Shown here piece by piece: positions 1 through 45,594 of a stretch of DNA of 47,978 bases. Both the position numbers and the translations under genes were made by a program. Every line of letters starts with the position of its first letter. The first letter of the stretch is position 1. The stretch is from a bacterium ADurb.Bin236. Its GTDB lineage: Bacteria; UBP15; UBA6099. The stretch is taken from NCBI GenBank assembly GCA_002069885.1, contig MWCD01000029.1:1-47978 (forward strand). Direction: 5' to 3'. The notes below the pieces were generated by a model. The model saw only the letters and a list, made by a program, of their open reading frames with translations, did not search any database and was not told the DNA's origin.

Positions 1-1962
1 GTGGTAATAATCCTCGTAATCGTTCCGCAGGAATTCCGTAATATACGGCGGGTCGCAGTAGATGACGTCAGCCTTTACATTGGGGAGAACCTTGAGGATG
101 TCGTCGTTGTGCGCCGCATTTTCCTGCCCGTTGTCGTAAACGAGCCCATTGATCTGCCGGACGTATTTCTTGAATGCCGTCACGAACTCTGAAACAGGAA
201 TGTTGCCGATGCTGGACGACCGGTATCCTTCGGCCAGATCGGATATCTTCCGGGTTCGGTTCATCTTGCTGCGGTTGAACATGCCGAACACGGCCTTGGC
301 CTTGCAGGTGTGGCCGAGCGCCGCGAGCGCGATATCCTTCTTGAATCCCTTCAACTTCTGAATGTTCGCCCAAACGTTATCGAGGAACTGGAGGATCGGT
401 TTTGTGTAGTAGTAGCCGTAAAAGGTATCGGTAATGAACGTACCGGCGTCGGGATTTTTCTCCAGAAGCGCGGCAAGTTCCTCGTCCGAGATGGTTTCGG
501 TGTTGTTTTCGATGACGGCCCGGGCGATGTGGTACGGGTAGGACATGATGTCGTTGGTCGTTACTCGTAGTCCCTTTCGTTTGTAGAAATAGGCGACGTT
601 CGCGCCACCGGAAAAAGCGTCAAAGAGGCTCTTTGCCTCCTTCGGGAAATGCTTATCTATCCAGTTCATGATGAAGTGTTTGTTTCCGATGAATCCGGTG
701 ACAAGAACGTTGTCCGTCTTTCCCGCAATGGCGCTCAGAACATCGGGGTCAAAATCAGCATCGACACACAGATCGGCGATGTCCTCCATGTTGGCGTTTG
801 CGGAAAGTTCTCCCGCGTCTTCCATATCTGCGGCGCACACAAAAAGGCGTTCCTTCGCATTAGAGGGATCTCCGCTTCGGTTCTTTCCGGCGAGCTGATA
901 TTTGTGATCTTTCGATTTCATGCGGGATTCTTTTCCGAGGTCGGCGACAATCTGCTTGATCTCGGACTCGGTGGGGTATGCATTATCGCGGTAGGAGATG
1001 AGCCAGTTCGGGATGTGCTTGGACGCGGTGAGGAAATCCGTGAAGAACTGTTTCGCGGTGGCGGGTGTTACGCCGGGGTCTTCGATCTTGTAATTGCGGA
1101 TTTTTTTCGCGTGGTCGATTTCCTTGTCCTTCCAGTAATCCATCAGACCTTCAACGAAGTGGTAATATTTCTCGTAATTAGTGGAACTGAACTGCGTGGC
1201 GTAAGGCGGGTCGAAGTAGACAAGATCGGCTTTTACCTTCGAAGCGGTATCAACGATGTCGCCGTTGAAAGCCTTGTTTCCCTTGCCGTTGTCGAAAACG
1301 AGAGCGTTGATGCGATAGAGGTTGTCGCGGTAGTGATCGAGAAAACTCTGCGTGGTGTAGTGCCGTTGTCCGCCCTTGGTCGTGGACGAGAAATGCCCAA
1401 AACCGCCGCCGGACATGCAGGTCTTGCCCATCGCGAAAAGCGCCATGCTTTTTTTGGTGCCGGTCAGTGCGTCGATGTTTGCGCGAAGCACGTCCAGGAG
1501 GGCGAGGACGTCGTTGTGAAAGAAAATGCCGTGGAACGTTTTCTGAATGAATGTTCCGGCATCGGAGTTGTGGTCTTTGAGCAGCCCCTCGATGTCTTTC
1601 TCGGAGAGGCGGGTGCTGTTGTTCTCGACGATGGCGCGGGCGGCGTGATAGCAGTAGGACAGCCGGTCGTTGGAAAAGACCTGCAGCCCCTTGGTTTTGT
1701 ACATGTAGCCGACGACGGACGAGCCAGAGAAAGCGTCGAGAACAGATTCCGCGTCTTCTGGCGTGTTGCCCCATATCCAGTCCACAAGTTTCTGTTTGGA
1801 ACCGATGAAGTTCGTGATGTATTTCGGGCGCTCATCAGCGGGCAGTTCCTCGGTGACAAGATCGATTTTGCCCTCTGCTGCGAGAAGGCCGAGACGCAGG
1901 TCTGCGTCCGCTTCGAGGAGAAAATTGATTTTCTCTATGTCGGTTTTGAATTCGACTTCCAT
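1..1962 (-). CDS. Tandem D12-class DNA adenine N6-methyltransferase (partial)
   Basis: The gene starts at the ATG at 1962 (GAGG seven bases upstream) and stays open to the window edge: 654 codons, C-terminus missing. The reading frame has two consecutive copies of the D12 (Dam/MjaIII-type) adenine methyltransferase fold. Copy 1 has the AdoMet-binding FIGSK motif at about residues 52-56 and the catalytic DPPY at 251-254. Copy 2 has FIGNK at about 424-428 and DPPY at 637-640. The copies are diverged but collinear, with 199 and 213 residues between the two motifs. Expected reaction: transfer of methyl from S-adenosylmethionine to adenine N6 in DNA. M.FokI is a known fusion of this kind, in which each half modifies one strand of an asymmetric site; a similar role is inferred here. 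No restriction gene is visible nearby, so protection of phage DNA from host restriction is the likely job. Confidence 0.88.
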   Translation of the reverse strand, partial: MEVEFKTDIEKINFLLEADADLRLGLLAAEGKIDLVTEELPADERPKYITNFIGSKQKLVDWIWGNTPEDAESVLDAFSGSSVVGYMYKTKGLQVFSNDRLSYCYHAARAIVENNSTRLSEKDIEGLLKDHNSDAGTFIQKTFHGIFFHNDVLALLDVLRANIDALTGTKKSMALFAMGKTCMSGGGFGHFSSTTKGGQRHYTTQSFLDHYRDNLYRINALVFDNGKGNKAFNGDIVDTASKVKADLVYFDPPYATQFSSTNYEKYYHFVEGLMDYWKDKEIDHAKKIRNYKIEDPGVTPATAKQFFTDFLTASKHIPNWLISYRDNAYPTESEIKQIVADLGKESRMKSKDHKYQLAGKNRSGDPSNAKERLFVCAADMEDAGELSANANMEDIADLCVDADFDPDVLSAIAGKTDNVLVTGFIGNKHFIMNWIDKHFPKEAKSLFDAFSGGANVAYFYKRKGLRVTTNDIMSYPYHIARAVIENNTETISDEELAALLEKNPDAGTFITDTFYGYYYTKPILQFLDNVWANIQKLKGFKKDIALAALGHTCKAKAVFGMFNRSKMNRTRKISDLAEGYRSSSIGNIPVSEFVTAFKKYVRQINGLVYDNGQENAAHNDDILKVLPNVKADVIYCDPPYITEFLRNDYEDYYH

Positions 1963-1986
1963 TTGCTCACCTCGCGGGAAATAAAA

Positions 1987-2026
1987 AAGCCCGGCAACAT
2001 GCGATCTCTCGCGTGTTACCGGGCTT
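1987..2026 (-). terminator. Rho-independent terminator upstream of the methyltransferase
   Basis: The arms AAGCCCGG and CCGGGCTT, extended by imperfectly paired AACA/TGTT and GCG/CGC segments, form a long hairpin. On the minus strand it is followed at once by TTTTTTATTT. It would stop transcripts of the AT-rich gene at 2125-3378 before the methyltransferase start at 1962. Confidence 0.7.
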
Positions 2027-2088
2027 GATGTCTCAGTGCTTTACGGGCTGGTTACCGGGCCTGAGTGTTCAATACTGCCGGGCTTTTA
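2015..2088. repeat. Short GTTACCGGGC direct repeats beside the terminator
   Basis: GTTACCGGGCTTGATGT (2015-2031) recurs as GTTACCGGGCCTGAGTGT (2051-2068), and a third partial copy, CTGCCGGGCTTTTA, lies at 2075-2088. The first copy is also the right arm of the terminator hairpin. The repeats lie between the methyltransferase and the AT-rich cargo gene and may be duplicated terminator remnants left by gene insertion. Confidence 0.5.
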
Positions 2089-2124: not shown

Positions 2125-3378
2125 TTACTGCGATGCAATCGCTTTGCGAATGCAATAACCTGTATATTCTCTAAGATTTGATACTGAAACAGAATTAACT
2201 CTTTTACATCCAGAATCATCGTTTGGATCAAGCTGTGGCATTGATATGCCCATATATCCCACATCACTTACGATATTGCCAATATGAACAATTTTGGACC
2301 GCTTTTGATAATAATCGTTTATTATTCTGGGCAGATATTCAGACCCATAAATTCCTACAAAATCACGGACACGTTTTGAAATGGCATATATAGGCTGACC
2401 ACATTTAGTGCAATTCTTTTGTTCCGTAGCTATAACCAAAGATGCAACTTCCAATGCAGAAATGTATAAAACAGTAGCCAATTCATTTTGTGATTTTCCC
2501 ATAGTTGCTGCAATACTAAGCAAATCGTCTCGTTCACGCACTGGATACTCCCATGTATCTTCACTTAATCTTTTTGGATCATCTATTATTAATAGATCAT
2601 TTACCTGGGCTTCAATCTTTCTTGCAGTATGGAATAGATATCCAGCTCTTATAAAGCAACCTAATTGCTTATCCTTATCGATAAATGAGACTTTATCTAA
2701 AGTTTCAATGGTCTTTTGGCGAATCAAAAGAAATCCTGCTTGAACAGGATATCCATCTATCCAGGTCTCATTCTCCATATATTGAATTTCTGTATCTTTT
2801 TTATCGTATTTGCTTTCTTGGCTTTTTACCGACCAGAAGGGACAATTTGTTTCGATAGAAATTATGTCTATAAAATTGTCGAGTCGTCTTAAAAACTGTG
2901 ATTGTGCATCAGGGTCATCATATCCATATACAGACAAAACTATCTCTGAGACACCATTCTTAAAGGGTTTGCATGGCACAATCGAAAACGAAGCACCTTC
3001 ATATCGAGATAATAGGTAAAAGGATTTTACGTTAGTCTTAAAATGATAAATCCTTGGTTTGAGCATTGAAACCTTAGCACGATTTACAGAGTCCTCGATC
3101 TTTTTTTTGATTTTATCGTAATTTGCTGTTGTCTTTTTATCAATATTGAAACTTATGGTTTTTATTTGTCCTTTCATTTCATAATTAATGCTCACTTCAA
3201 TTGAAAAAGGAGGAACATTAATATCCATAAAACCAAAAACGACCTTGTTTTCCTTGCCTACCTTATATGGGGTGTATTGCCACGCACATTTCCCAAAGCT
3301 CTTTCTTAAATCAGCCCAAAGAGATCTTAGAAATTTATTTGATGTGTCCAAATCTTTCGTGCCAACTTTTACTATCAT
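2125..3378 (-). CDS. HEPN-type (ApeA-like C-terminus) protein, AT-rich cargo gene
   Basis: A 417-residue protein. Its C-terminal part contains a CTKC zinc-knuckle-like pair (323-326) followed by the segment KRSKIVH, with R360 and H365 in an Rx4H arrangement typical of HEPN ribonuclease domains and close to the RSKIVHGG-like motif of ApeA-type HEPN proteins. The N-terminal 300 residues match no family I can name. The gene is visibly AT-rich against GC-rich neighbours, has an AAAGG ribosome site just before its ATG, and is followed by its own terminator-like hairpin: the features of a phage cargo (moron) gene. HEPN proteins of this class often act in abortive-infection defence through RNA cleavage; that role is inferred. 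No signal peptide or membrane segment is seen. Confidence 0.6.
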   Translation of the reverse strand: MIVKVGTKDLDTSNKFLRSLWADLRKSFGKCAWQYTPYKVGKENKVVFGFMDINVPPFSIEVSINYEMKGQIKTISFNIDKKTTANYDKIKKKIEDSVNRAKVSMLKPRIYHFKTNVKSFYLLSRYEGASFSIVPCKPFKNGVSEIVLSVYGYDDPDAQSQFLRRLDNFIDIISIETNCPFWSVKSQESKYDKKDTEIQYMENETWIDGYPVQAGFLLIRQKTIETLDKVSFIDKDKQLGCFIRAGYLFHTARKIEAQVNDLLIIDDPKRLSEDTWEYPVRERDDLLSIAATMGKSQNELATVLYISALEVASLVIATEQKNCTKCGQPIYAISKRVRDFVGIYGSEYLPRIINDYYQKRSKIVHIGNIVSDVGYMGISMPQLDPNDDSGCKRVNSVSVSNLREYTGYCIRKAIASQ

Positions 3379-3538: not shown

Positions 3539-3879
3539 CAGTCAATCTTTCCTTTCCTTATCTGTCCCAACACATCTTCTACCAGTTCCGTCACGCTTCC
3601 GTACTTGTCCGTCTCTTCAACCTTTGTGCGCGATCCGAGATATATTGAAATACCATCGCGGTGCTGCTCGAGGAAATCCCCAGGCAGTTCCCGAATACCC
3701 TGTTCTACAATTCGATTTACCACACACTGAGCATCCCAGTCCTCGGCATCGTTTCCCGACACATAACCGACCTCGAATGCCGAACGGTCGTCCACCCCGT
3801 GCGCCCATACACCGATGGGGATCATCTCCCACTTGTTCGGGTCGAGACGTTTGTATTCAATGAAATAGCGAATCTTCAT
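3538..3879 (-). CDS. Hypothetical protein, 113 aa
   Basis: Not recognised. The preferred start is the ATG at 3879, which forms TGATG with the stop of the upstream gene; an in-frame TTG lies one codon earlier. The protein is acidic and soluble, has no membrane segment, and begins MKIRYFIEYKRLDPNKWEM, which suggests a small beta-rich fold. It is the second of three short ORFs chained by one-base stop/start overlaps behind the giant head-protein gene, so it is probably made in fixed ratio with its neighbours. Virion accessory or immunity-like roles are possible but unproven. Confidence 0.6.
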   Translation of the reverse strand: MKIRYFIEYKRLDPNKWEMIPIGVWAHGVDDRSAFEVGYVSGNDAEDWDAQCVVNRIVEQGIRELPGDFLEQHRDGISIYLGSRTKVEETDKYGSVTELVEDVLGQIRKGKID

Positions 3880-4355
3880 CAAAGTGGTTTCTCCCAGTTC
3901 AGTGCCATTTCCATCGCCTCGGATGAGAAATTTGCGTACAGGCGCTCGAATGCATCCATCTTATAGTTTTTATACTGCCGCCACTGTTTGAAATCTGATC
4001 TCCCCATGGTATCGACCACATCGAGGGATTCTATGAAGCAGGAATACTCCCGATGGTCAGTGAAATGTACCAGATCGTCACGTTCCTCCCGGACATTATC
4101 CATCTTGAAAAGCCGGACATTCTGGGGCCCGCCCTGATCGAACCCGACCTCAAAGCACACAGCCCAGTAGTAGTGGCCGGAAACGGAACCGTCAGCGCCG
4201 ATGATTGGCCTGGCAAGCAGGATATCGAAACGGTCAACGAAAATGCGGACGGATTCGGGGATGCCAATGTCCACTACAACCACGGCACCGGGCTCAGTAA
4301 TCCGGTCGATCTTCTCCTGCATCTGTTGTTTTACGGCATCGAGTTCCTGCTGCAT
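3879..4355 (-). CDS. Hypothetical protein, 158 aa, coupled to the head-protein gene
   Basis: Not recognised. The ATG at 4355 overlaps the TGA of the giant head-protein gene by one base (TGATG). The N-terminal 20 residues are helical and polar; the middle is mixed alpha/beta, with a hydrophobic strand AVVVVDIG; the C-terminus is aromatic and charged (FKQWRQYKNYKMDAFERLY). There are no signal peptide, cysteine-motif or membrane features. Tight coupling to a protein with kinase- and ADP-ribosyltransferase-like domains makes an inhibitor, chaperone or co-packaged partner conceivable; this is context inference only. Confidence 0.6.
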   Translation of the reverse strand: MQQELDAVKQQMQEKIDRITEPGAVVVVDIGIPESVRIFVDRFDILLARPIIGADGSVSGHYYWAVCFEVGFDQGGPQNVRLFKMDNVREERDDLVHFTDHREYSCFIESLDVVDTMGRSDFKQWRQYKNYKMDAFERLYANFSSEAMEMALNWEKPL

Positions 4356-7300
4356 CAGAGCACCACTTCCTCTATCTTCCGGCCATCCGGCAGTTTTGAA
4401 AAGCCTTTCTTTTTGAACAGTTCGATGACCTTTGCGCGTTGCGACGCATTGCTGGTTTTGATTACATCGATTTCATCCACGAGCGACACCGTATATTTAA
4501 AGATCGTCTCGTCGCTGCGGCCACCTGAAGCCAGCCGCTTGTAATCGTCGATGCTCGTAAGTCGTCTGCGCCGAACGTAATCGCCGACAACTTTGCCGAA
4601 AGCGTCGTGATCATAAGTTATGGCATCCATCCGGCGCAGAAGCCGCTTTTTGAAATAGAGCCCCGTGCTCCCCCGGCCACTGGCCGGCAGCTTGCGCACG
4701 CGGGTAAAAAAATAAGAAGCGCCGCCGGTGCCCATGTCACTCGTCGGCGACATGCCCCCGGGTTTCACGCCGATGCGGATTTTCTCGACGGTCGAGACCA
4801 TGTTGCCGTTGTTCTCGAGCACAGTCTTTACGAGATCTTCCACGTCGCCGTTGTCCGTGACATTGTGATAAAGCCCGTATCCTTTGAGTTCCCGATCCAG
4901 CATCTCTTCCGTCAGATCAAACCGTAACTGGTGCCTGTATCCGGCGCGCCGGGTCGGGTCTTTGAATCCGAGTTCATATTTTCCGGTCGGGTCATAACCT
5001 GGTATCTTCGTTACATCGTCAACACCGAGTTCATCCGCCCAGAACTTCCGCATGACCTGAATGCGCTCGGCTTTGGTCGCATTCGATGAATCCAGCTTTT
5101 GCGACATCTTTTTCCACGCAGCAGAAGAGTCTTTCTTCAATAGATATGCCTGTTTCTGCAAATACATGATCTCGGCATCCTCTGCGCTGGCGGGAACTGA
5201 GTTGATTCCAAGTTGGTCGAGCCTGTCGAGAATGGCCTCGAACCGCTCCGGGTCCGCGATCTTGCCGGTCACGCGGATTTCCACCTGGCCCTGAACCGCA
5301 TAAGGATTTGCGGAATCCCACGGGCGGTAATCCATGACCACACCGTCGTCGAGTTCGATCCGGTACTGCACACCCCGTCCAAATCCTGAACTGCGGCCAA
5401 AGATGCTGTTCAGGTCCGTGTCGGATTTTACGACGTGGATGTCGCCACCCCGGCACTGGCGCTGATCCATTTTGATGTTTGTTCTCTGGAAGCGGAAACC
5501 AGCCTTTTTAGGCTCCGGCTTCGCCTCTTGCGCAATTAGATTCTTTTTCGCCGTGTACTGATCGAACTTGACTGCGATCTTTTTATTGTTTTTTGCGGCA
5601 TCCAGAACGGACTCGCATGTCTTTCTGTACTCCTCGGCCATATCGCGGATGGACTCTGTCTTGCCGGATTTCGCCAGCTTCTCAAGATCGGGAAGTATCT
5701 TTCTGATCTCGTCCAGCGTGTCCGCGTTGTATTTGAAGTCCCCGCTGTCGACATGATGATTTACCGTTTTCACGCCTGACAGGATTTTATCGTAGAAGGT
5801 GTCCTCGGGCAGCGTGTCCCCGGTGGCGAGTCCCTTTAGTGCCGTGCCTTTTTCACCGAGCGCATCGAGAAGTTTCCGTTCGGATTCCGGGCGAAGTTTG
5901 AATTGAACAACCGTTTCCTCTTTGCCCTGAAGATTCTTTTGTGTGAAAACGAGCGCATTCTGATCCTCGATATCGTCCACGTCGAGGCGCATGGCTTTTC
6001 CCTGACCCTTCATTATCTGTGCATCACGCAGAATGGCTTCGTCTTCACCGGAGAGCTTCTTTATTGTCTTTACATCGTCCTGGAACCGGAACTCGGATTT
6101 GAACCGCGCTTTATAAAGGTCGTTGTAGAATTTCTCGAAGTCCCGGCGAATGTTGTTTTTACGCTCCAGCGCGAGCCGGTAGAACTCATCTTTCGCCGCG
6201 CTCGCTTTCACGCCGAAGCGCCCCTCGACATAAGGCCGTATGATTTCAAGGTACTCGGAGTCAGGGATTTTCTCGATGCGCTGGATCACCCGAAGCGCAG
6301 CGTTCAGGTCGATGTCGATCTCGCCGTTCTGGTATGCCCGGAACAGCGTGTTGTAAATCGGCTCGGCCTCCATCGAGTTTGGATGATAGGAGATGGAAAG
6401 TCTATCTTTGCCGAGAAACTTGAACGTCTGTCCCTTGTCGATTCCGATAACCCGGTCATCTGCGACACGGACAAACTGTTTTGCATGCGCATCGTGGTTC
6501 GAGATAAGCCAGTCGAGAATGTGTTCGCGCTGGATAGCCTCGATCTCGGACGGAGACAGTTTGCCGATGGGGACGTCCCTGAACGACGCCTCTGATTTGA
6601 CGTTTTTTACCAGCCGTTGAATGGAACCGGAACGACCGTTCAGTTCCACATATCGAACCTCGACGGCGTCGGGATTTATGAGACGGGCAATCCGGTATCC
6701 CATCTCCTCGCCATGGGCGATGAATTTATCGGTGGGTTTGAAAAGCCACTCGTCGCCGTGCTCGTCCACGTAGATATATTTCTCGTGAGTGCCCCCGAGC
6801 GATTTCGCGTCCTTCGAATATTTGAAAGCATTTCCCTTGTCCAGCGCGTCCCAGTCAGAATCGACTTTTGCGAAACCCGACGACAGGTCCGCGTGTGGTT
6901 TTTCAAGAACGGGCGGCGCGACCGGTTCCGGGGGCGGCGTGTGTTTCGGCGGCGCTTTGGGCTGCGGCGCCTGAACTCCCGCGGCTGGCTTCTTTCCGTA
7001 TTTCTCGGCCCACTTCGCCCACTTGGTTTCGATGCTGTTTTTGGCGGCCTGGATCGCGGCATCGTCCGTCTCAGTGAAAAGAGCGATGAAATCGTCTTTC
7101 GAACCCCACTGCCAGTGTGTGATCTTGCTTTGCTTGGCGAGGTCTTTCAGGTCCTTCGACCCCATAACCTGAATCTTGGCCTTGAACTCGGCTTTCTTTT
7201 TTGCGATTTCCGCAGCTTTCTCTTTGAGATAGGCGTCATCGACCGAGAAGCCACCATTGCCGAGATAAGATTCGGCGTCCTTGATCGCGGAAAGAACTGT

Positions 7301-8899
7301 TTTGAAATCCTTCGGGTCTGTGGAAACTTTGACAGCATCCAGCAGGGAAATAATCTGATCTTTTTCCTTCTTGATCGTTTCCTCGGCAACCTGAACGACG
7401 GCTTCCTTGGTGACTTTCTTACCGATCTCTTCTTTGAAGTTTTTCTCCAGCGCTTTAACGAGGTGTTCCTTGGTTTTGAGAATCGGAAGATTGAATTTCT
7501 TTTTCGCCTCGATGAGCGCCTGCCCGGAAAGCCCGCTGTGGTCCACACCGGGTTCCAGCACATCGAGGATGTCGATCACTTCCTGTTTTGTGAGATTGAG
7601 GGAAATACCTTTTTCCTGCGCCAGTTCTTTGAGCTTCGACACCGGCATCGTCCCGAAATCCGGCATCGATTCCTGTTTTGCTTTTGCCTTCAACAGATCG
7701 ATCAGATCGTCTTTGCTGCGCAGAGCGGCGATTTTATGTTCTTTTATAAGAGCCTGCAGGTCCTTGCCCGACAGGTGCGAGAAGTCCGTTCCCGTTTTCT
7801 TTTTGAGGATATCGAGAAAATCGGTCTTAGTTCGGGCGATGGAGATGCCGTTCGCCTTGGCCTGATCCTGGAGCTGCTTTATTGTGAGCTTGTCCCATTC
7901 GCCTTTTGAAATGAATTGCCCGATCTTAATCGCATCGGACTGTTTTTCCTTTGCCATATCCTCGATTGTCTGCGGCGGCAGGATGCAGGCGGCTTCCGCC
8001 GGCGCGGCTACGACTCCGAGATTCTTTGCACCACATATCTCGGACGGATAGGCATTCAGTATTTGACACCTGCAGTGGGGATGTGCCGGGATGTTCGGCA
8101 CTTTATCAATCGGGAATATCTTTCCGTCCAGCTCGCGGCACACGGGACACTCGCGCTCGTCGCCCACGGCCATCCATTCGACTTTCGTCACGCCGACCGT
8201 GTTGTAAAACTTCATGCGCCCCTGATTGTGGGCGCGGAGCGTTTCCGTCCGGGCTATCATCTCCATCCGGTACTGCGCCGTCTTGAAAACGGTTTTTCCG
8301 GCCTTGCGGAACTCTTCGGGGTCTTTGACCACGCGCCCGATGTCTTTCGCGATCTCCGGGACACTGCGGCCGGAGGCGATGCCCGTCTGGATCGCGCGAT
8401 TGATCCCGTCAGTCAACTCGCGGGAAACATCCCCTGCGAGTTGCACGTTGTAGTTGGCCATGAAATCCAGCGCGTCTTTATCAATCAGCGTGAAGATGTT
8501 GCTGCCGGTTTGTTTGATGCCCTCTGGTGTGAGATCGCGGTAAAACGGCATCTGGGCCCGGACAAGATCGCCGATGCCGCTGTGGATGCCCGACCGGTAA
8601 CTCTCTTTGACAGCAGTTTTCATAATGAGCGAGTGCTCGTCCCGGACGGTTCGAATGTGTTCCCTGATTTGCTGTTGGAGCTTTTTAAGGGATGCCTGAT
8701 TGATTGCCTTTCCCTCGGGCAGTGAACCAAGGTTCGCGTAATAAAGCAGGCTCGCTTTGACGTCCTTTTCGGAACGCTGAAGCGATTCCAGGACGCGAGC
8801 GATCGTCTGCTCGGAATAAAGGTCGCGCTCATGCAGAGACACGAGCGTCGCCTCGACTATCCGGTCGCGGAGTGTTTTTTCAACAGCTACTGCCCGCAT
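4355..8899 (-). CDS. Giant head-morphogenesis protein with SAP-like repeats, HipA/PI-kinase-like and ART-like domains
   Basis: The start at 8899 is chosen because GGAAGG lies six bases upstream; the protein is 1514 residues. An upstream in-frame extension would run far into the portal gene. Residues 1-280 match the SPP1 gp7/Mu F-like minor head family, ending in the diagnostic ECPVCRELDG (C251, C254) and HPHCRC (from H273). Residues about 340-495, plus a fifth copy near 585, hold five SAP-like helix-extension-helix repeats of the form LxxLxxxAKxxGIxxxxTKxxLIxxL. A proline-rich linker lies near 641-661. Next comes a HipA/PI-kinase-like domain (665-890) with GDEWLFKP, the catalytic-loop-like SNHDAHAKQF (N801-H805) and GIDKGQTF (D821). 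The C-terminus (1340-1405) has LYHNVT (H1345) and GGASYFFTR, resembling an ADP-ribosyltransferase core. Usual family members have 250-550 residues. The protein is probably carried in the virion and possibly delivered with the DNA. Confidence 0.85.
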   Translation of the reverse strand: MRAVAVEKTLRDRIVEATLVSLHERDLYSEQTIARVLESLQRSEKDVKASLLYYANLGSLPEGKAINQASLKKLQQQIREHIRTVRDEHSLIMKTAVKESYRSGIHSGIGDLVRAQMPFYRDLTPEGIKQTGSNIFTLIDKDALDFMANYNVQLAGDVSRELTDGINRAIQTGIASGRSVPEIAKDIGRVVKDPEEFRKAGKTVFKTAQYRMEMIARTETLRAHNQGRMKFYNTVGVTKVEWMAVGDERECPVCRELDGKIFPIDKVPNIPAHPHCRCQILNAYPSEICGAKNLGVVAAPAEAACILPPQTIEDMAKEKQSDAIKIGQFISKGEWDKLTIKQLQDQAKANGISIARTKTDFLDILKKKTGTDFSHLSGKDLQALIKEHKIAALRSKDDLIDLLKAKAKQESMPDFGTMPVSKLKELAQEKGISLNLTKQEVIDILDVLEPGVDHSGLSGQALIEAKKKFNLPILKTKEHLVKALEKNFKEEIGKKVTKEAVVQVAEETIKKEKDQIISLLDAVKVSTDPKDFKTVLSAIKDAESYLGNGGFSVDDAYLKEKAAEIAKKKAEFKAKIQVMGSKDLKDLAKQSKITHWQWGSKDDFIALFTETDDAAIQAAKNSIETKWAKWAEKYGKKPAAGVQAPQPKAPPKHTPPPEPVAPPVLEKPHADLSSGFAKVDSDWDALDKGNAFKYSKDAKSLGGTHEKYIYVDEHGDEWLFKPTDKFIAHGEEMGYRIARLINPDAVEVRYVELNGRSGSIQRLVKNVKSEASFRDVPIGKLSPSEIEAIQREHILDWLISNHDAHAKQFVRVADDRVIGIDKGQTFKFLGKDRLSISYHPNSMEAEPIYNTLFRAYQNGEIDIDLNAALRVIQRIEKIPDSEYLEIIRPYVEGRFGVKASAAKDEFYRLALERKNNIRRDFEKFYNDLYKARFKSEFRFQDDVKTIKKLSGEDEAILRDAQIMKGQGKAMRLDVDDIEDQNALVFTQKNLQGKEETVVQFKLRPESERKLLDALGEKGTALKGLATGDTLPEDTFYDKILSGVKTVNHHVDSGDFKYNADTLDEIRKILPDLEKLAKSGKTESIRDMAEEYRKTCESVLDAAKNNKKIAVKFDQYTAKKNLIAQEAKPEPKKAGFRFQRTNIKMDQRQCRGGDIHVVKSDTDLNSIFGRSSGFGRGVQYRIELDDGVVMDYRPWDSANPYAVQGQVEIRVTGKIADPERFEAILDRLDQLGINSVPASAEDAEIMYLQKQAYLLKKDSSAAWKKMSQKLDSSNATKAERIQVMRKFWADELGVDDVTKIPGYDPTGKYELGFKDPTRRAGYRHQLRFDLTEEMLDRELKGYGLYHNVTDNGDVEDLVKTVLENNGNMVSTVEKIRIGVKPGGMSPTSDMGTGGASYFFTRVRKLPASGRGSTGLYFKKRLLRRMDAITYDHDAFGKVVGDYVRRRRLTSIDDYKRLASGGRSDETIFKYTVSLVDEIDVIKTSNASQRAKVIELFKKKGFSKLPDGRKIEEVVL

Positions 8900-10419
8900 C
8901 CGCATCCTTCCTTTGCGCGTTTTCTTTCGAACGAGGTGCATGCGCGGGAATCGAACCGAGTGTCCCGGTTGTTCGCGTCGCACCAGTTGTTTTCATCGTC
9001 GAAAAACTCACACTCGTCACAGATTGTGTCGAACTCCACCGAACCGGTGGCCATGGGCGGCCTGTAACTCCAGTCGGCGGTCGCCGGTTTGTTCTTTTCC
9101 TTATCCAGCCCGAGTTTCTCCTGCGCGACACCAACGGACATGATACCGGCGTTAACCATTTCGATGATGAGCTTCGGATCGGTGACCGATATGGATTGTT
9201 TCGACTCCGTTTCGGTTTGTGAAGCCTCCACTTCGGGATTGAGGTCCATCTTGATCTGAAGGCTGTTCTTCGAGATGAGTTTGCGGTCGTAAAGTTCAAT
9301 GTATAGTTTTTTGAGATCAACCTCGTTCGTCAGATCGAGATCGTTGAATATGTAATTGATGCTCTTTTCCTCGTATCCCTTGAGCTTCTGCCAGTCCGAA
9401 AATATCCAGTTCAGAATATCGCGGGCGACCTGTTTGATTTCCTTCAGCATGACAATCATTTTCTGCATGCCGATGGACGCAGTTGCGAAGTTCGGGCCGT
9501 CCCCGGTGATCAGGGACTTCGCAAGGCCGAGCGCGATTATGATGTCCTCTTTGATTTCCTTGATCTTCTTTTCCGTGTCCAGCACCTGTCCCTCGGTGCC
9601 GTATGTCTCTGCTTTCACATAGAACGGCACGACCAAACCGGCTTTCAAATCCATGCGATTCAACATGTCGCGCACGGTGTTGAGCGTTCTCTGATCCGGC
9701 ACGATGGTCTTCTGTCCGAATTGCCCGCCAACCTGAATGAACCGAAGCGGCGTGGTCCATCGTTTGGCAACGGCGCGTTCGGCACTCCGGTAATCCCTTA
9801 AGAGCTCAATGGATTCAAACGCCGTGACAACCATCGAATTCCCTCGAGGTGAGTAGGACGGCGCGTTCCATTTGATATGAAGTGTCTGTTCGAGTGGCAA
9901 ATCAATCGGCTCGCCGCTGCCCGGAGTCTCCGCCGTTTGCTTCGCCTCCACGAGTTTTCCGTTTTCGTATTTCACCTTCACGCTTATCGGATTTACACAA
10001 ACAATTTCCTCGATGTCTTTTCCGTCCTGTGTAGGGCGTTTGAAACACACGGTTTCACCTTTGACGAGACACTGAAGGACGCTATCTTTGATGAGCTTGT
10101 TCAATTGAACCCGTTCTGCGAATTCGCGGGCTTCCCATTTCACATCCTCGTCGTCACAGTTGAACTGGATTTCATCGCCGATTGCGAACGTTCGCCATGA
10201 ATTAATCGCGTTCTGGACAATGGGTTCCTCGACGTAGAACTGCCACGCCTTGGTCGCGCGCTCCTCAAAAGTTTTCGGAATAGCATCACTCACGTTCTGT
10301 GCGCTGAACGCGGACGCGCTCATTTCGGCTGCGGTCGCCATATTCGGGGTGATGATAGACAGCCCCGTGGTGCGATTGCCACCTCTGCGACGATTGTTGT
10401 TTCCGTTTTTCTTTTCCAA
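8887..10419 (-). CDS. Phage portal protein
   Basis: A 510-residue protein between the large terminase and the head-morphogenesis protein, the standard portal position. It has the portal-type layout: N-terminal FYVEEPIVQNAINSWRTFAIG, a beta-rich wing, then GNSMVVTAFESIELLRDY and an acidic helical stem region (DTEKKIKEIKEDIIIALGLA). The ring-forming portal is the DNA gateway and docking site for terminase. The start is a TTG at 10419, with GGGG about seven bases upstream; the next methionine lies 26 residues in. The last 45 residues are unusually Cys-rich (CDECEFF, a single C, then GCGCGQ), which suggests a metal-binding tail. The stop overlaps the start of the next gene by 13 bases. Confidence 0.85.
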   Translation of the reverse strand: MEKKNGNNNRRRGGNRTTGLSIITPNMATAAEMSASAFSAQNVSDAIPKTFEERATKAWQFYVEEPIVQNAINSWRTFAIGDEIQFNCDDEDVKWEAREFAERVQLNKLIKDSVLQCLVKGETVCFKRPTQDGKDIEEIVCVNPISVKVKYENGKLVEAKQTAETPGSGEPIDLPLEQTLHIKWNAPSYSPRGNSMVVTAFESIELLRDYRSAERAVAKRWTTPLRFIQVGGQFGQKTIVPDQRTLNTVRDMLNRMDLKAGLVVPFYVKAETYGTEGQVLDTEKKIKEIKEDIIIALGLAKSLITGDGPNFATASIGMQKMIVMLKEIKQVARDILNWIFSDWQKLKGYEEKSINYIFNDLDLTNEVDLKKLYIELYDRKLISKNSLQIKMDLNPEVEASQTETESKQSISVTDPKLIIEMVNAGIMSVGVAQEKLGLDKEKNKPATADWSYRPPMATGSVEFDTICDECEFFDDENNWCDANNRDTRFDSRACTSFERKRAKEGCGCGQ

Positions 10420-10440: not shown

Positions 10441-11973
10441 TTAATTAAAAATCGCGTTGGTCATCACTGGCAGCGGCAGTTCCGACACCCCGCCGAGCCC
10501 ATCAAGACGTTCCTGCTCCCGAATCATCACAGCGCACCGGACGGCGTCCACGATATGGTCGTTGCCCTTTGAGTAAATGACCTGTCCGGTCTTCATCGAA
10601 TATGTGTGTGTCGTGAACTGACTTTCGATCTCCACATCTGATGCCGGAAGTATCAGTTGCCGCGACTGGAACCCCTTGTTGATCAGGCTCGTCATGTATT
10701 CCTTGCATTTCTTTTTGATTTCCTGCCCGTCGTTCTCGCCGATCACGACGGCGCTTCCGAAGTTGTATCCGCGAAGCCGGGGCGCGAGATTCAGTTCCTT
10801 GTATTTATTGAGTGCAGTCAACTCCTGAACCACGGAAAGGCCGTTGCCGCCTGCATCAACGCCGATGCCCGCGGGATTGAGATATCCATCCAACAGAGCG
10901 ATTGCCTGGGCAATATGAGGATAGGCCACGCGCTCCATGTGAATGCGGCGCACAAGACGCAGAACAGCTTTTTCATTTTCCGACGTCTCCCTGAAAATCA
11001 CGATTTCGGTCGGGTCGGCTGTGTAACCGAGGTCGCCGCCGATCCAGAACAATCCATCCAGCGGCGAGAGATCGAGGAGCATGTCGAGCCTCTCGGCCAG
11101 TTCTTCCTCTGTATCACAATCTTTCAACTCGTCACCGGTGATGTCGATACACATATACTCCGGCACTTCCTGCCGACAGATGGTGAGATGTTCGAGGTTG
11201 AACGCGCCGTAGCTCGGACGCCCGTGTTCTCCGGCCACCTCATGCTGCCACCCGGCAGTGTCCCGTCCGCCATAAAATTCAATGAGTTCATCCTCGCGCT
11301 CCGGCGTCCAGTTCGGGTTGAGCCATGACGGCCATCTGAAGACCTTCCATTTCTTCGAATGCGTGAGGCGGTAATATGTCGTGTCACGCAGACCGTTCGG
11401 TGTCGAGTAAATCCGCATCCTGCCGCCAGCCTTGAGACATTGTCTGAGCGCTTTCCATGCCTTTTCCGAAAGCCACGCGCCCTCGTCGACAAGAACCAAT
11501 TCAACATGGAGTGACCGGAACGGATCGCCGTAAGCGCCAGCGGGCCGAAAATAAATCACGGAGCCGTTCGTGAACTCTATCTTGAAGTAAGGCTTCCGGG
11601 TGATCTTCGGGCGTCCTTGCGCATTAATCGCGATGCTCGACTGGAGGTCGGCGTTGTTCTCGATCTGGAATTCCACTTCCTCGACGATGGTGTCGACCGG
11701 GCCCTGATGCGGTGCGGCCACCAGAACGGAACCGCCTCTTCTCACGAACGCATGATGAAGAGCCAGCGTTGCGATGTCGACCGTCTTGCCGGAGTCGCGC
11801 CCGTCGAGATGGATGATGTTTGTCGCCGGACATTCCAGGTCTTCATTCTGATGCGACCAATAGCGGCGCGCGCCGCCGTCGCGGTCTTTGAGGTAGTGTT
11901 CACCCCAGAGCCGCGGGTTCCTCAGAATGCGCCCGATGGCGCGATGGTCGTTCGGCATTTCTACTGTATTCAA
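10441..11973 (-). CDS. Terminase large subunit (TerL)
   Basis: A 510-residue packaging motor and headful or cos nuclease. The ATPase part has Walker A GRDSGKT (58-64) and Walker B ELVLVDEGAW (D163, E164) followed by the coupling motif YSTPNG. The C-terminal RNase H-like nuclease shows its acidic residues in GGDLGYTADPTEI, GIGVDAGGNG and NDHIVDAVR. The start is probably TTG at 11973 with AGGAGA four bases upstream; the ATG five codons later lacks a ribosome site. It leads the structural operon (terL, portal, head protein) and diverges from the plus-strand recombinase cassette, so a late promoter should lie in 11974-12171, though I cannot identify one. Confidence 0.95.
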   Translation of the reverse strand: MNTVEMPNDHRAIGRILRNPRLWGEHYLKDRDGGARRYWSHQNEDLECPATNIIHLDGRDSGKTVDIATLALHHAFVRRGGSVLVAAPHQGPVDTIVEEVEFQIENNADLQSSIAINAQGRPKITRKPYFKIEFTNGSVIYFRPAGAYGDPFRSLHVELVLVDEGAWLSEKAWKALRQCLKAGGRMRIYSTPNGLRDTTYYRLTHSKKWKVFRWPSWLNPNWTPEREDELIEFYGGRDTAGWQHEVAGEHGRPSYGAFNLEHLTICRQEVPEYMCIDITGDELKDCDTEEELAERLDMLLDLSPLDGLFWIGGDLGYTADPTEIVIFRETSENEKAVLRLVRRIHMERVAYPHIAQAIALLDGYLNPAGIGVDAGGNGLSVVQELTALNKYKELNLAPRLRGYNFGSAVVIGENDGQEIKKKCKEYMTSLINKGFQSRQLILPASDVEIESQFTTHTYSMKTGQVIYSKGNDHIVDAVRCAVMIREQERLDGLGGVSELPLPVMTNAIFN

Positions 11974-25386: not shown

Positions 25387-27033
<1,647 letters not shown>

Positions 27034-31026: not shown

Positions 31027-32226
31027 TTAATGTTTCTTGCGAAAATCCATGAAATCGGCCTTGATGTCGAGATCGACGTCAAGCATATCCGCGAGTTTGT
31101 CGAACAGCTTTTTCTGCGGCCGCCGGGCGGATTCCCCGCACTCTCGCGCGAATTCCCGCAGCAGTTTTTCCTGCTTTGACGAAAGGTGCTTTGGAGTCAC
31201 AATTCTGACTTCCACAAACTGGTCGCCCCTGCGCGAACCTCTCAAATCCGGCATTCCCATCCCCGCGAGCCGAAACACCGTCGCCGTCTGCGTTCCGGAC
31301 GGTATGGTCAGCTTTTCTTTCCCCCAGAGCGTCGGGATTTCCACCTGATCGCCGAGAGCTGCTTGTGTAATGCTGATGGGAATCTCACAATGGATGTCCG
31401 GCCCGTTTCTTTTGAAGAACTCGTGTTCCTTCACATGAACAAAAACGTAGAGGTCACCGCGCGGTCCGCCGTGGAGTCCCGGCTCTCCCTCGCCTGAAAC
31501 ACGCACCCTCTGGCCATTGTCTATCCCGGCGGGCACGCCCACGGTTATCCGTTTTGTTTTCTCAACCGTTCCAGCGCCCCGGCATTCGCGGCAGAGGTTC
31601 ACGTGCGCCTTTCCCAGACCCCGGCACCGGGGGCATGTCTGGACATTCACGAACTGCCCGAAACTCGTCCGGTGCTCATGCCGCAACTCACCCGTTCCCC
31701 GGCAGTCCGGGCAGGTTTCAGGCGGACGCCCGTCGGTGGAGCCGCTCCCGCCGCATTTGCCGCATTCCGTTTTTCCAGGAATTTCCACCTCGATCTTTTT
31801 CCCGGACGCGGCCTCGAACAGGGATATCTCAATATCGTATCTCAGGTCGCTTCCGCGCTCGGCCTGCGGCCCCCGGGGGCGGGCGCGCGTTCTACCCCCG
31901 AAAAACGAGTCGCCGAAGAAGGAATCAAAAATGTCGCCGAAGGAACCGAAACCGAAGTCTCCGAAGCCTCCGAAATGTTCGCCGCTCAACCCGTCATGGC
32001 CGTACCTGTCATAGACGGCTCTTTTTTCCGGATCGCTCAGCACCTGGTACGCTTCTGAAAGCTCCTTGAACTTTGCCTCGGCGTCCGGGTCGGTCTTGTT
32101 AACATCGGGATGAAGCTGCCTGGCCAGCAGGCGATACGCTTTTTTGATTTCATCTTGGGATGCGTTTCTGTCAACGCCCAATACTTCGTAATAGTCGCGT
32201 TTGTTTGTTGCGTTCATCGTTGCCAT
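31027..32226 (-). CDS. dnaJ: Chaperone protein DnaJ (type I Hsp40)
   Basis: A roughly 400-residue full-length DnaJ. The J domain has [20 protein letters not shown] and the HPD triad; then a G/F-rich linker ([16 protein letters not shown]); the zinc centre with four CxxCxGxG repeats ([32 protein letters not shown]); and a C-terminal substrate-binding part. It stimulates DnaK ATPase. No dnaK or grpE lies in the window. The exact start is uncertain among [10 protein letters not shown] (32226), the inner ATG at 32217 and a TTG at 32235. A near-consensus minus-strand promoter (32318-32346) lies about 90 bases upstream, opposite the XRE regulator promoter. Confidence 0.95.
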
Positions 32227-32317
32227 TTCTTGCAATTATCCCTGTTTTCGTTGAACACCGCCGTTTTCGGTATTGTCAGGTCCGGTTTCCGCTCATCGCG
32301 CTTCCGAACGATGTCGA

Positions 32318-43063: not shown

Positions 43064-43089
43064 GTAACAATTAACTCGGGAGGATGCAT

Positions 43090-45594
43090 ATGAATAGCCG
43101 ATCAAAGTTGTTTATAAAGGCAATTTTTGTTTCCATTATGGTAATTGCGCTTTCGGGTTGTGGCGGAGGAGGTGGGGGCACTGTTAGTAATACTCCACAA
43201 CAAAATCAGAAAACAGAAGTTGAATCAGTTAGCGCTGCTATTCAGGACTCAGGTGCTCAATGGGTCGCGGCTGAAAACCCCATCACAAGTCTTTCTTATG
43301 AACAACGAAAATCCCTTCTCGGAGCTCTTCCCGAACCTGCAACAGGAACTCCCAGAGTGGCTATGAGAAATGCATTACAAGCAAGCCAATTACCTTCATC
43401 GTTTGATTGGCGTAACAAAGATGGTAAGAACTGGATTACCACACCACCGAGAGATCAGCAAAAATGTGGTAGCTGTGTAGCATTTGCAAGTTTGGGAGTA
43501 CTGGAAGCTGTAATCGGTATTTCAAACGGTACGCCAAATCCAAGTTTTGATTTATCTGAAGCTGATTTATATACAAGTGGTGGTCGAGACTGCAAAGCAA
43601 ATCCGGGTTGGACTTTGGCCTCTGCTTTCGATCATCTTAAAAATGTAGGTGTAGTTGATGAGGCGTGTTTGCCGTATGCTCTTTCTAACTGTGTGTGGGA
43701 CTCCGATACCAAAAGATATTGGTGTGATATCGCTACTAATAAATGCTCGAATTGGCAATCAAGAATAACAAAAACTATTTCGACGACACTTGTGCCACAA
43801 ACTGCAACAGAAATAAAAAATCGACTTCTTAAAGGACCTGTTGCCGCAGGATCAATTTTAATTTACGATGACTTTTATTCATATTCGAGTGGCATATATA
43901 AATTCGTACAATGTATTCCTGATGATATCAAAAATAGCAAGCCGGTTTCTGAATGGACAAAATATTTTCAAAATGACAGGACAAAATGCACTCCTGGATT
44001 GCATGCCATGGCTATAGTGGGATATGACGACGCTGGTGGATATTGGATTGTTAAAAACAGTTGGGGCGATTCATGGGGTGCGAAAGGATATATATATATT
44101 AAATATGGTGAAATTGGGATAGAACAATACGTATATGCTTTGGATGTTTCAGTAACCCAACCTAGTGTTACGGCTTGGGCTTCACCAGCAAATGTTACCT
44201 TGTCTGGAGGACAAGCTCAAGTATCACTAACATGTACAACACAAGGAAATGTCAGTTCAATAGAAGGGCGATGTTTTTCCTCAGATAATTGGAGTGCGAT
44301 CACGTCAGGGACTACGAAATATTGCACATACACAAGTGCGGGGAATTATACACCCGGATGCCGTATTAATGGCACAATAACCGACAATGTTGATACAGCA
44401 ATATCTGTACAAGCAGAATCGAGTGTTACAGCTACCATTTCCCCATCTTCAGGTTCAACTTCTACATCATTTACTTTAACCTGTCTTTTGGCAGGAGCAT
44501 ATCCAACTTTGCTTGAAGGAAAGTGCAAACCTGCAGATTCATGGTCAGCTATTGCACCGGGTTATTCAAAAATATGCACGTATTCTTCAGCGGGGTCATA
44601 TTCACCTGCTTGTAGGGTGAATGGTACGACAAGTGACGTTGTCGATTCTCCAGTTATCGTTTCTCAGACCGATTCTTGCGCAGGGATAAATTGCGGATCA
44701 AATGGGTATTGTTCCTCTGGAAGTTGTTATTGTTCTCCCAATTATGGCAATTGCGACAATTCTTGGAATAACGGATGTGAAATTAATCTTAACACGAACA
44801 CATCATATTGCGGGTCATGTACATATTCATGCAACCTTGGCCAAACTTGTTCATCTGGAACCTGTGTTGGAGGAAACACAACTGACAACCCATGGATTAC
44901 TGTTGCAGCTGGGTCTTTTGTTATGGGGTGTGCTGACGCAGATACTGACTGTTTCGCCAAAGAAAAACCCAAACACAATGTTTATCTTTCAGAATATAAA
45001 ATTCAAAAATATGCGGTGACAAATTCACAGTATAAGAAATGCGTTGATGCAGGAGTCTGTACTACACCTAAAGTATCATCTTCTTATACACGTTCAAATT
45101 ATTATGACAATGCGAGTTTTGATAATTATCCAGTGATTAATGTTGACTGGTATCAAGCAAGGTCATTTTGCCAATGGATAGGGGGACGGTTGCCTTCTGA
45201 GGCAGAATGGGAAAAAGCTGCACGTGGGCCAAGCCCAAGAGAAGTCATTTATCCTTGGGGCAATACTAATATGACTTGTAATATAGCTAATGGCTATGTA
45301 GATGTATATTGCGTTGGCGATACTTCGGATGTCAAAAATTATTCATCGGGGGCAAGCTATTATGGACTAATGGATATGGGAGGTAACGTATGGAATTGGG
45401 TTAATGATTGGTACAGTGATAGTTACTATTCATCAAGCCCAACCTCTAATCCGACAGGTCCATCATCAGGCATTCAGAACGTCATCAGGGGGGGCTCGTG
45501 GCGCAATTATTATGGATGGCATCGAGTATCGTACCGCGATGGTAATCGCCCAGAATATTATGTTGATAATATAGGTTTTAGATGCAGCCAATAA
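43090..45594 (+). CDS. Lipoprotein with papain-like peptidase, Ig-like repeats, Cys-rich repeats and FGE-fold domain
   Basis: An 834-residue protein; the second ATG (43090) is preferred, with GGGAGG six bases upstream. The signal peptide ends in the lipobox LSGC (C24), so the protein is lipid-anchored outside the inner membrane. Residues about 100-350 form a C1 papain-like peptidase: QQKCGSCVAFAS with nucleophile C129, GLHAMAIVGYD with H305 and IVKNSWGDSWG with N323. Two Ig-like repeats (355-530) share the segment WSAI and TCTYTSAG-like ends. A Cys-rich part (CGSNGYCSSGSCYC and onward) follows, then an FGE-sulfatase-fold domain (595-834) with PWITVAAGSFVMGC, SEAEWEKAARG, GGNVWNWV and IRGGSW. 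Markedly AT-rich, unlike its neighbours, suggesting recent transfer. Confidence 0.88.
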   Translation: MNSRSKLFIKAIFVSIMVIALSGCGGGGGGTVSNTPQQNQKTEVESVSAAIQDSGAQWVAAENPITSLSYEQRKSLLGALPEPATGTPRVAMRNALQASQLPSSFDWRNKDGKNWITTPPRDQQKCGSCVAFASLGVLEAVIGISNGTPNPSFDLSEADLYTSGGRDCKANPGWTLASAFDHLKNVGVVDEACLPYALSNCVWDSDTKRYWCDIATNKCSNWQSRITKTISTTLVPQTATEIKNRLLKGPVAAGSILIYDDFYSYSSGIYKFVQCIPDDIKNSKPVSEWTKYFQNDRTKCTPGLHAMAIVGYDDAGGYWIVKNSWGDSWGAKGYIYIKYGEIGIEQYVYALDVSVTQPSVTAWASPANVTLSGGQAQVSLTCTTQGNVSSIEGRCFSSDNWSAITSGTTKYCTYTSAGNYTPGCRINGTITDNVDTAISVQAESSVTATISPSSGSTSTSFTLTCLLAGAYPTLLEGKCKPADSWSAIAPGYSKICTYSSAGSYSPACRVNGTTSDVVDSPVIVSQTDSCAGINCGSNGYCSSGSCYCSPNYGNCDNSWNNGCEINLNTNTSYCGSCTYSCNLGQTCSSGTCVGGNTTDNPWITVAAGSFVMGCADADTDCFAKEKPKHNVYLSEYKIQKYAVTNSQYKKCVDAGVCTTPKVSSSYTRSNYYDNASFDNYPVINVDWYQARSFCQWIGGRLPSEAEWEKAARGPSPREVIYPWGNTNMTCNIANGYVDVYCVGDTSDVKNYSSGASYYGLMDMGGNVWNWVNDWYSDSYYSSSPTSNPTGPSSGIQNVIRGGSWRNYYGWHRVSYRDGNRPEYYVDNIGFRCSQ

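Follow-up and report, generated by a model that had tools for sequence, protein, structure and literature searches.

The locus analysed here raises the question of why a phage head protein should end in two enzyme-like domains, and what these domains would do. The window, meaning the whole stretch of DNA that was analysed (47,978 nucleotides; contig MWCD01000029.1 of assembly GCA_002069885.1, from the bacterium ADurb.Bin236), encodes such a protein in a single chain of 1514 residues. We examined its gene neighbourhood, domain folds, catalytic residues and relatives in other phages, and weighed the mechanisms by which such a chain might act (Table 1).

A multidomain head protein gene and its setting

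The gene lies in a minus-strand ORF (4355-8983), and the plus strand across the same stretch is interrupted by many stops. The initial annotation of the locus gave no strand, nor did it include E1464 as the third catalytic residue, the downstream gene with its conservation, or the fixed kinase-ADP-ribosyltransferase (ART) pairing described below. The gene order is terminase, portal and fusion gene, a late-gene position, and phage replication and recombination genes are found at about 16-24 kb of the same contig. The contig also carries a repressor-like gene and chromosomal-looking genes for GroEL (25387-27012) and a DnaJ-like protein (31027-32235), alongside which no integrase was identified; it probably contains one end of a prophage. 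The fusion gene is present four times in the genome, on four contigs (100, 93, 92 and 78% identity), and all four copies adjoin a portal gene, a terminase gene and the 158-aa neighbour gene. In PHROGs, the protein corresponds to phrog_6577 (E 2.2e-133), a family labelled 'unknown function'.

Table 1. Positions in the window of the fusion gene, its domains and catalytic residues, and the adjoining genes.
Feature	Position	Strand	Basis
158-aa partner gene	3879..4355	-	ATG overlaps the fusion-gene stop codon; conserved
1514-aa MuF / SAP-repeat / kinase / ADP-ribosyltransferase gene	4355..8899	-	ATG 8899, stop 4355-4357
DarT-like ADP-ribosyltransferase domain (predicted), residues 1336-1514	4358..4894	-	AlphaFold and VIA fold matches
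E1464 of H-Y-E triad	4508..4510	-	148/148 relatives
Y1396 of H-Y-E triad	4712..4714	-	147/148 relatives
H1345 of H-Y-E triad	4865..4867	-	151/151 relatives
Two conserved segments between kinase and ART, residues 955-1330	4910..6037	-	Well folded in AlphaFold model; conserved
PI4K/HipA/Fam20C-type kinase domain (predicted), residues 670-930	6110..6892	-	AlphaFold and VIA fold matches
Kinase catalytic loop N801-x-D803-x-H805 ... Q808 and metal-binding D821 (GIDKGQ)	6437..6499	-	Conservation in relatives
ATP lysine K721	6737-6739	-	Conservation in relatives
Five SAP-like helix-extension-helix repeats, residues 338-610	7070..7888	-	Leave-one-out profiles
MuF (SPP1 gp7 / Mu F) head domain, residues 165-280	8060..8407	-	Pfam PF04233 E 1.6e-17; phrog_115 minor head protein 8.8e-36
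Portal protein	8887..10419	-	phrog_2739 1.2e-54; 13-base overlap with fusion-gene start
Terminase large subunit	10441..11973	-	Pfam Terminase_6N/6C; phrog_2 2.4e-28

The SPP1 gp7/Mu F head domain that had been read from the sequence is certain by profile, PF04233 scoring 64.7 bits against a cut-off of 29.6. The five SAP-like segments, also proposed at the outset, are real internal repeats, which start at residues 338, 376, 418, 457 and 579, the fifth being set apart. In a one-protein search, a profile of the remaining four recovered each of repeats 1, 2, 3 and 5 (E 1.3e-7 to 0.0018); such a profile did not recover repeat 4 when that one was left out, but it is plain by eye and can be aligned to the others. 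The Pfam families SAP and Rho_N both stayed under their cut-offs on the fusion protein.

Homologues with the identical domain order, MuF-SAP-kinase-middle-ART, are abundant (101 of the first 180 loci), and complete ORFs with this order number 36 when made non-redundant at 95% identity. One clade encodes MuF in a short gene of its own immediately upstream, and the rest of the chain begins at or near the MuF stop, so a covalent link between the enzymes and the head is not a necessity. We rejected a programmed frameshift joining these split ORFs; the overlaps have almost no slippery sites and start codons are present where the ORFs meet, which argues for two genes. An intron or intein was likewise rejected for one relative with a broken kinase (locus L071), where a copy of an insertion sequence, bearing IS3-like transposase ORFs, forms the interruption. 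In cyanophage Pan1, the MuF domain and the ART occur with some of the middle region but with neither kinase nor SAP repeats, showing that the ART can do without the kinase.

When the gene of the window was compared with seven close relatives, dN/dS was 0.02-0.14 in every domain, including kinase, ART and MuF; selection is strongly purifying on all of them. The C-terminus is unexchanged within about 50 non-redundant family members and evolves with the rest of the chain.

Two predicted enzymes and their pairing in other phages

The kinase-like call was originally made from the motifs SNHDAHAKQF (residues 800-809) and GIDKGQ (residues 819-824), and it is borne out by an AlphaFold model of residues 670-960 (mean pLDDT 92, pTM 0.87; 54 relatives as input), which has a kinase fold near N801-D821. 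The best structural match of the model is PI4KIIalpha (VIA Z 15.5 over 231 residues), followed by CtkA (14.2), Fam20C (13.0), actin-fragmin kinase (11.2) and HipA (10.6), and the region is predicted to be a kinase of PI4K/HipA/Fam20C type. K721, N801, D803, H805 and D821 have no exception among 170-171 aligned relatives, although the relatives counted here and in Table 1 come from overlapping scans in which loci were counted repeatedly, so the sequences are not independent. The same five residues are found in 28-29 of 29 more distant relatives, where aligned, and the position of E732 holds Glu in 164 relatives and Asp in 6. With the atypical kinases PI4KIIalpha, CtkA, HipA and Fam20C the domain shares fold and catalytic residues, but it differs from them in its fusion to a phage head protein and an ART, in having no HipB-like partner that we could see and at the catalytic-loop Asn position, where 166 of 170 relatives have Gln (Q808) and 4 have Asn, so that metal binding may differ. 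Pfam HipA_C gave 17-20 bits and did not reach its cut-off of 30.5; judged by its modelled fold, the kinase is a divergent relative of HipA and not a HipA.

The C-terminal half was modelled as residues 955-1514 (pLDDT 89.5, pTM 0.77; 48 relatives as input). Its two middle segments, considered only as part of this 560-residue model, matched no known family and gave no convincing fold match. The last 179 residues contain GLYHNVT (1342-1348) and GGASYFFTR (1392-1400), motifs that had earlier been taken to recall ADP-ribosyltransferases, and the model does have an ART fold near H1345. DarT occupies the six best VIA rows (Z 7.7-8.9, 141-150 residues, 9-13% identity); the rows after these are mostly helical bundles matching another part of the model. 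The top match, PDB 7OMW (Z 8.9, 146 residues, rmsd 3.5), has the fold of residues 1336-1514 in common with the fusion protein, whereas identity is 12%, the DarT HMM (PF14487) does not match, no adjacent DarG or NADAR was recognised and the ART sits in a head protein.

Other comparisons with DarT were weaker. Foldseek gave E 0.06-0.16 for the C-terminal model, hhalign of the ART profile against a DarT alignment was not significant, and Pfam as a whole had no match to the ART domain. BFVD, a set of predicted viral structures, returned nothing significant for the C-terminal half, and sequence searches of solved structures (whole protein, A1, ART-only and kinase-only profiles) found no real match. 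H1345, Y1396 and E1464 each lie within a predicted strand of the model, as the ART fold demands, and R1400 is present in 149 of 149 aligned relatives; the catalytic R51 of DarT has no clearly invariant counterpart in the ART alignment. Fold, motif and conservation together underlie the ART call; for the proposed kinship with DarT, the basis is fold and motif only. The domain is predicted to belong to the H-Y-E, DarT/PARP-like (ARTD) class and not to the R-S-E class. In this the domain differs from phage T4 Alt, the precedent cited in the initial annotation: T4 Alt is an R-S-E enzyme and has neither a kinase nor a MuF domain.

Across about 150-170 relatives (36-94% identity), the catalytic positions show little or no variation; with the strongly purifying selection on all domains, this places the motif set far beyond chance. 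A C-terminus that is merely structural in the homologues, which would have undercut the reading of the tail as an enzyme, is unlikely, as the full H-Y-E triad is kept.

How often the two enzymes occur together was assessed with a profile to which the kinases of mycobacteriophages contributed; the scan relied on kinase motifs only and picked up proteins with the kinase in other phages. ORFs were counted as non-redundant at 90% identity over the kinase, and an intact C-terminus was required. Among the best 80 loci per search, a range beyond which more distant kinases lacking an ART may exist, there were at least 71 non-redundant kinase-bearing phage ORFs, and 70 of the 71 also carry an ART. Among the matches listed, 53 have a DarT-like H-Y-E domain, 17 an exoenzyme-type R-S-E domain and one neither; the sole kinase ORF without an ART among these matches (L235) encodes 469 aa and lies near tail genes. 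Pfam ADPrib_exo_Tox (PF03496) matches the C-termini of 13 of 15 proteins examined, one of these 13 (L245) under the cut-off; L280 carries a DarT-like ART instead of the exoenzyme type and L235 none, and the R, STS and ExE motifs are visible in the exoenzyme-type ARTs. Members of the latter class include gp53 of the M. abscessus prophage prophiFSAT01-1 and gp16 of mycobacteriophage Onyinye.

Because part of the 53 DarT-like ORFs came from an ART-based scan and form one family, independent support for the pairing comes chiefly from the kinase-only scans and from the existence of two ART classes. That one kinase occurs with both classes argues for selection of the two as a pair. From these sequence patterns, kinase and ART probably work as a pair carried by the virus into the infected cell.

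A proposed packaged effector and its alternatives

We consider it somewhat probable that the fusion protein, a portal-associated minor head (MuF) protein, is packaged and acts as an effector with two enzymes. The injection of MuF toxins has been put forward as a hypothesis in the literature, and the packaging of T4 Alt in the head and its injection are established (PMC5576092, PMC9503650, PMC5512222). In the proposed sequence of events, the MuF domain would anchor the protein at the portal in the head interior, with the SAP repeats keeping it bound to the packaged DNA; when a cell is infected, either the whole protein or the C-terminal part would pass with the DNA into the host cytoplasm, by analogy with T4 Alt and the published MuF models. 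The DarT-like H-Y-E domain would then transfer ADP-ribose from NAD+ to a host macromolecule, while the PI4K/HipA-type kinase, presumably active and acting in an order relative to the ART that is likewise presumed, would phosphorylate the same target or the chain itself. Kinase and ART would in this way act as one unit in cell takeover.

The downstream gene bears on a different possibility, that the protein is a MuF polymorphic toxin with which prophage-armed virions stop the growth of infected non-lysogens, the 158-aa neighbour serving as immunity for the lysogen. MuF-toxin fusions are a published temperate-phage family with small downstream ORFs (PMC5576092), the contig probably carries a prophage, and the 158-aa ORF begins at the fusion-gene stop codon: a homologue is the next ORF in 109 of the 122 loci with enough sequence, mostly starting -3 to 0 from the stop, and some of the 13 misses reflect a longer overlapping ORF picked by the script (L011 has the homologue by tblastn). 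Yet the C-terminus is not swapped within the family and co-evolves with the rest, two enzymes on one chain are atypical of such toxins, and the 158-aa partner is conserved, not variable, and did not turn up next to relatives of the R-S-E type. This possibility appears unlikely.

Searches of Pfam, PHROGs and the PDB gave no counterpart of the 158-aa protein, which also showed no homology to a known immunity family; in the adjacent gene, the one position considered, neither a DarG macrodomain nor a NADAR antitoxin was recognised. The protein is a candidate immunity protein, chaperone or head partner, of which a fast-changing immunity protein is somewhat disfavoured because the 158-aa protein is conserved. 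Our tentative suggestion is that the neighbour is probably a co-made partner keeping the chain inactive or soluble before packaging.

The identity of the ART substrate leads to a second alternative, in which the ART modifies DNA, either that of the phage inside the head, as protection from host nucleases, or that of the host; depending on the target, this is a sub-case or a rival of the effector model. Nucleic acid is a reasonable candidate substrate in view of the DarT-like modelled fold and the SAP-like repeats: all six best fold matches are DarT, and DNA-binding-like repeats lie on the same chain. Against this, likeness of fold does not fix the substrate, sequence profiles give no link to DarT, and DarT R51 is without a clearly invariant counterpart, and we are doubtful that DNA modification is the function.

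Less promising still, and in our judgement quite unlikely, is an action confined to the producing cell, where kinase and ART would modify the chain or head proteins such as portal and scaffold and so time assembly or packaging, with no injection. The head-cluster position of the gene and the separate MuF gene of some phages are compatible with such a role, but most such head proteins manage without these enzymes, and relatives with the other ART class or without the kinase fit better with swappable effectors. Finally, it is very improbable that the two domains are dead and retained purely for structure, for although the catalytic Asn is Gln in most of the kinases, the five kinase residues are invariant and the H-Y-E triad nearly so down to 36% identity, the R-S-E motif is kept in the other ART class and dN/dS is low.

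Relation to known systems and meaning for phage biology

The two-enzyme effector reading builds on known parts. MuF-ART fusions have already been published (PMC5576092; Alt/VIP2-MuF fusions in PMC9503650), and the MuF-ART and MuF toxins (Jamet 2017, PMC5576092; EFV of Enterococcus faecalis V583; PMC9503650) share with the fusion protein an N-terminal MuF domain, a C-terminal ART, a late-gene position and a small downstream ORF. Unlike these, the fusion protein has a predicted PI4K/HipA-type kinase and SAP-like repeats in between, its ART appears to be H-Y-E/DarT-like and not Alt/VIP2, and its C-terminus is not polymorphic within the family; the H-Y-E triad sets it apart from the R-S-E Alt/VIP2 ARTs usual on MuF. 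With T4 Alt, it would share the concept of a head-packaged, injected ART, by analogy, and no sequence match of the fusion protein to Alt families was found.

A named counterpart is prophiFSAT01-1 gp53 (BK061308), which is encoded after terminase and portal and shares the head domain, the kinase family (E 8e-44) and a C-terminal ART. Its ART, however, is of exoenzyme type (phrog_3895 / R-S-E), and its kinase is unannotated in the record, the depositors having named it 'minor capsid and ADP-ribosyltransferase domain fusion protein'. Polyvalent proteins (Iyer 2017, PMC5512222) also have several effector domains, including kinases and ARTs, on one virion-linked chain; in the parts of that account available to us, the kinases are described as truncated Ser/Thr/Tyr-type and no MuF-kinase-ART architecture is described. 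A literature search of main texts, few subscription papers among them, found neither that architecture nor a kinase-ART pairing nor a DarT-like class on MuF. The fusion protein therefore combines known kinds (MuF-ART fusions, polyvalent proteins, HipA/PI4K-like kinases) with features not found in the papers searched, namely the interposed kinase, its near-constant pairing with an ART and the putative DarT-like class on MuF.

Among the loci found, the kinase almost never occurs without an ART, and ARTs of two classes accompany it, which points to a two-enzyme mechanism missed by annotation; in mycobacteriophage records, the ART is named but the kinase is not. We put forward, tentatively and with less confidence than the effector reading of this one protein, a wider phage effector principle: an obligate pair of PI4K/HipA-type kinase and ART on a head-associated chain, in which the kinase would gate or complement the ART, the ART class (H-Y-E or R-S-E) could be swapped, and the pair would be delivered with the genome and modify the host before phage gene expression. 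Since mycobacteriophage relatives infect M. smegmatis mc2 155, a standard laboratory host, the idea is directly testable with existing phages. The occurrence of a predicted DarT-like fold together with DNA-binding-like repeats in a head protein bears, moreover, on whether phages themselves ADP-ribosylate DNA.

Variant forms of the fusion gene among relatives

The fusion gene is interrupted or altered in several related loci. In one of them (L071), an IS3-like insertion sequence with two transposase-like ORFs splits the kinase part (L071:3411-5013). Another relative (L175) lacks the GGASYFF stretch, including the Tyr of the H-Y-E triad (equivalent to about residues 1385-1398 of the window protein), and is additionally split by a break that falls between the SAP repeats and the kinase; decay of the copy, or an error in assembly, is the probable cause. 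Among the matches listed, every complete kinase ORF has a recognisable ART except L235:3392-4798, which sits amid tail genes with a tape-measure-like ORF downstream. The N-terminus also varies: a 2129-aa open frame in a further relative (L106:673-7059) carries ~600 additional residues ahead of MuF and is possibly a portal-MuF fusion.

Two of the related loci, L012 and L013, lie on a single 133,335-bp IMG/VR contig (IMGVR_UViG_3300001567_000262), where the fusion gene occurs twice on the same strand. The two copies stand ~88 kb apart, an arrangement that suggests two neighbouring related prophages, or a viral contig with wrong bounds.

Other genes of the window

Further coding features of the window
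Feature	Window position	Strand	Remark
836-aa protein	43084-45594	+	C-terminal match to a kinase PHROG
459-aa ORF	649-2028	+	
417-aa gene	2125-3378	-	flanked by 158-aa partner gene and truncated DNA methyltransferase gene

In the 836-aa protein, the C-terminal 230 residues match a PHROG named kinase (phrog_18508, 1.5e-34) and the N-terminal match is peptidase-like. The contig end cuts off what is probably a large minus-strand gene, of which the 459-aa ORF would be the antisense shadow. The counterpart of this stretch in L012 is a 1189-aa protein that matches PHROG DNA methyltransferases (phrog_27806) and is followed by the major head protein. For the 417-aa gene, tblastn found no counterpart in the three other genomic copies or the other related loci compared; it is possibly an insertion specific to the window prophage.
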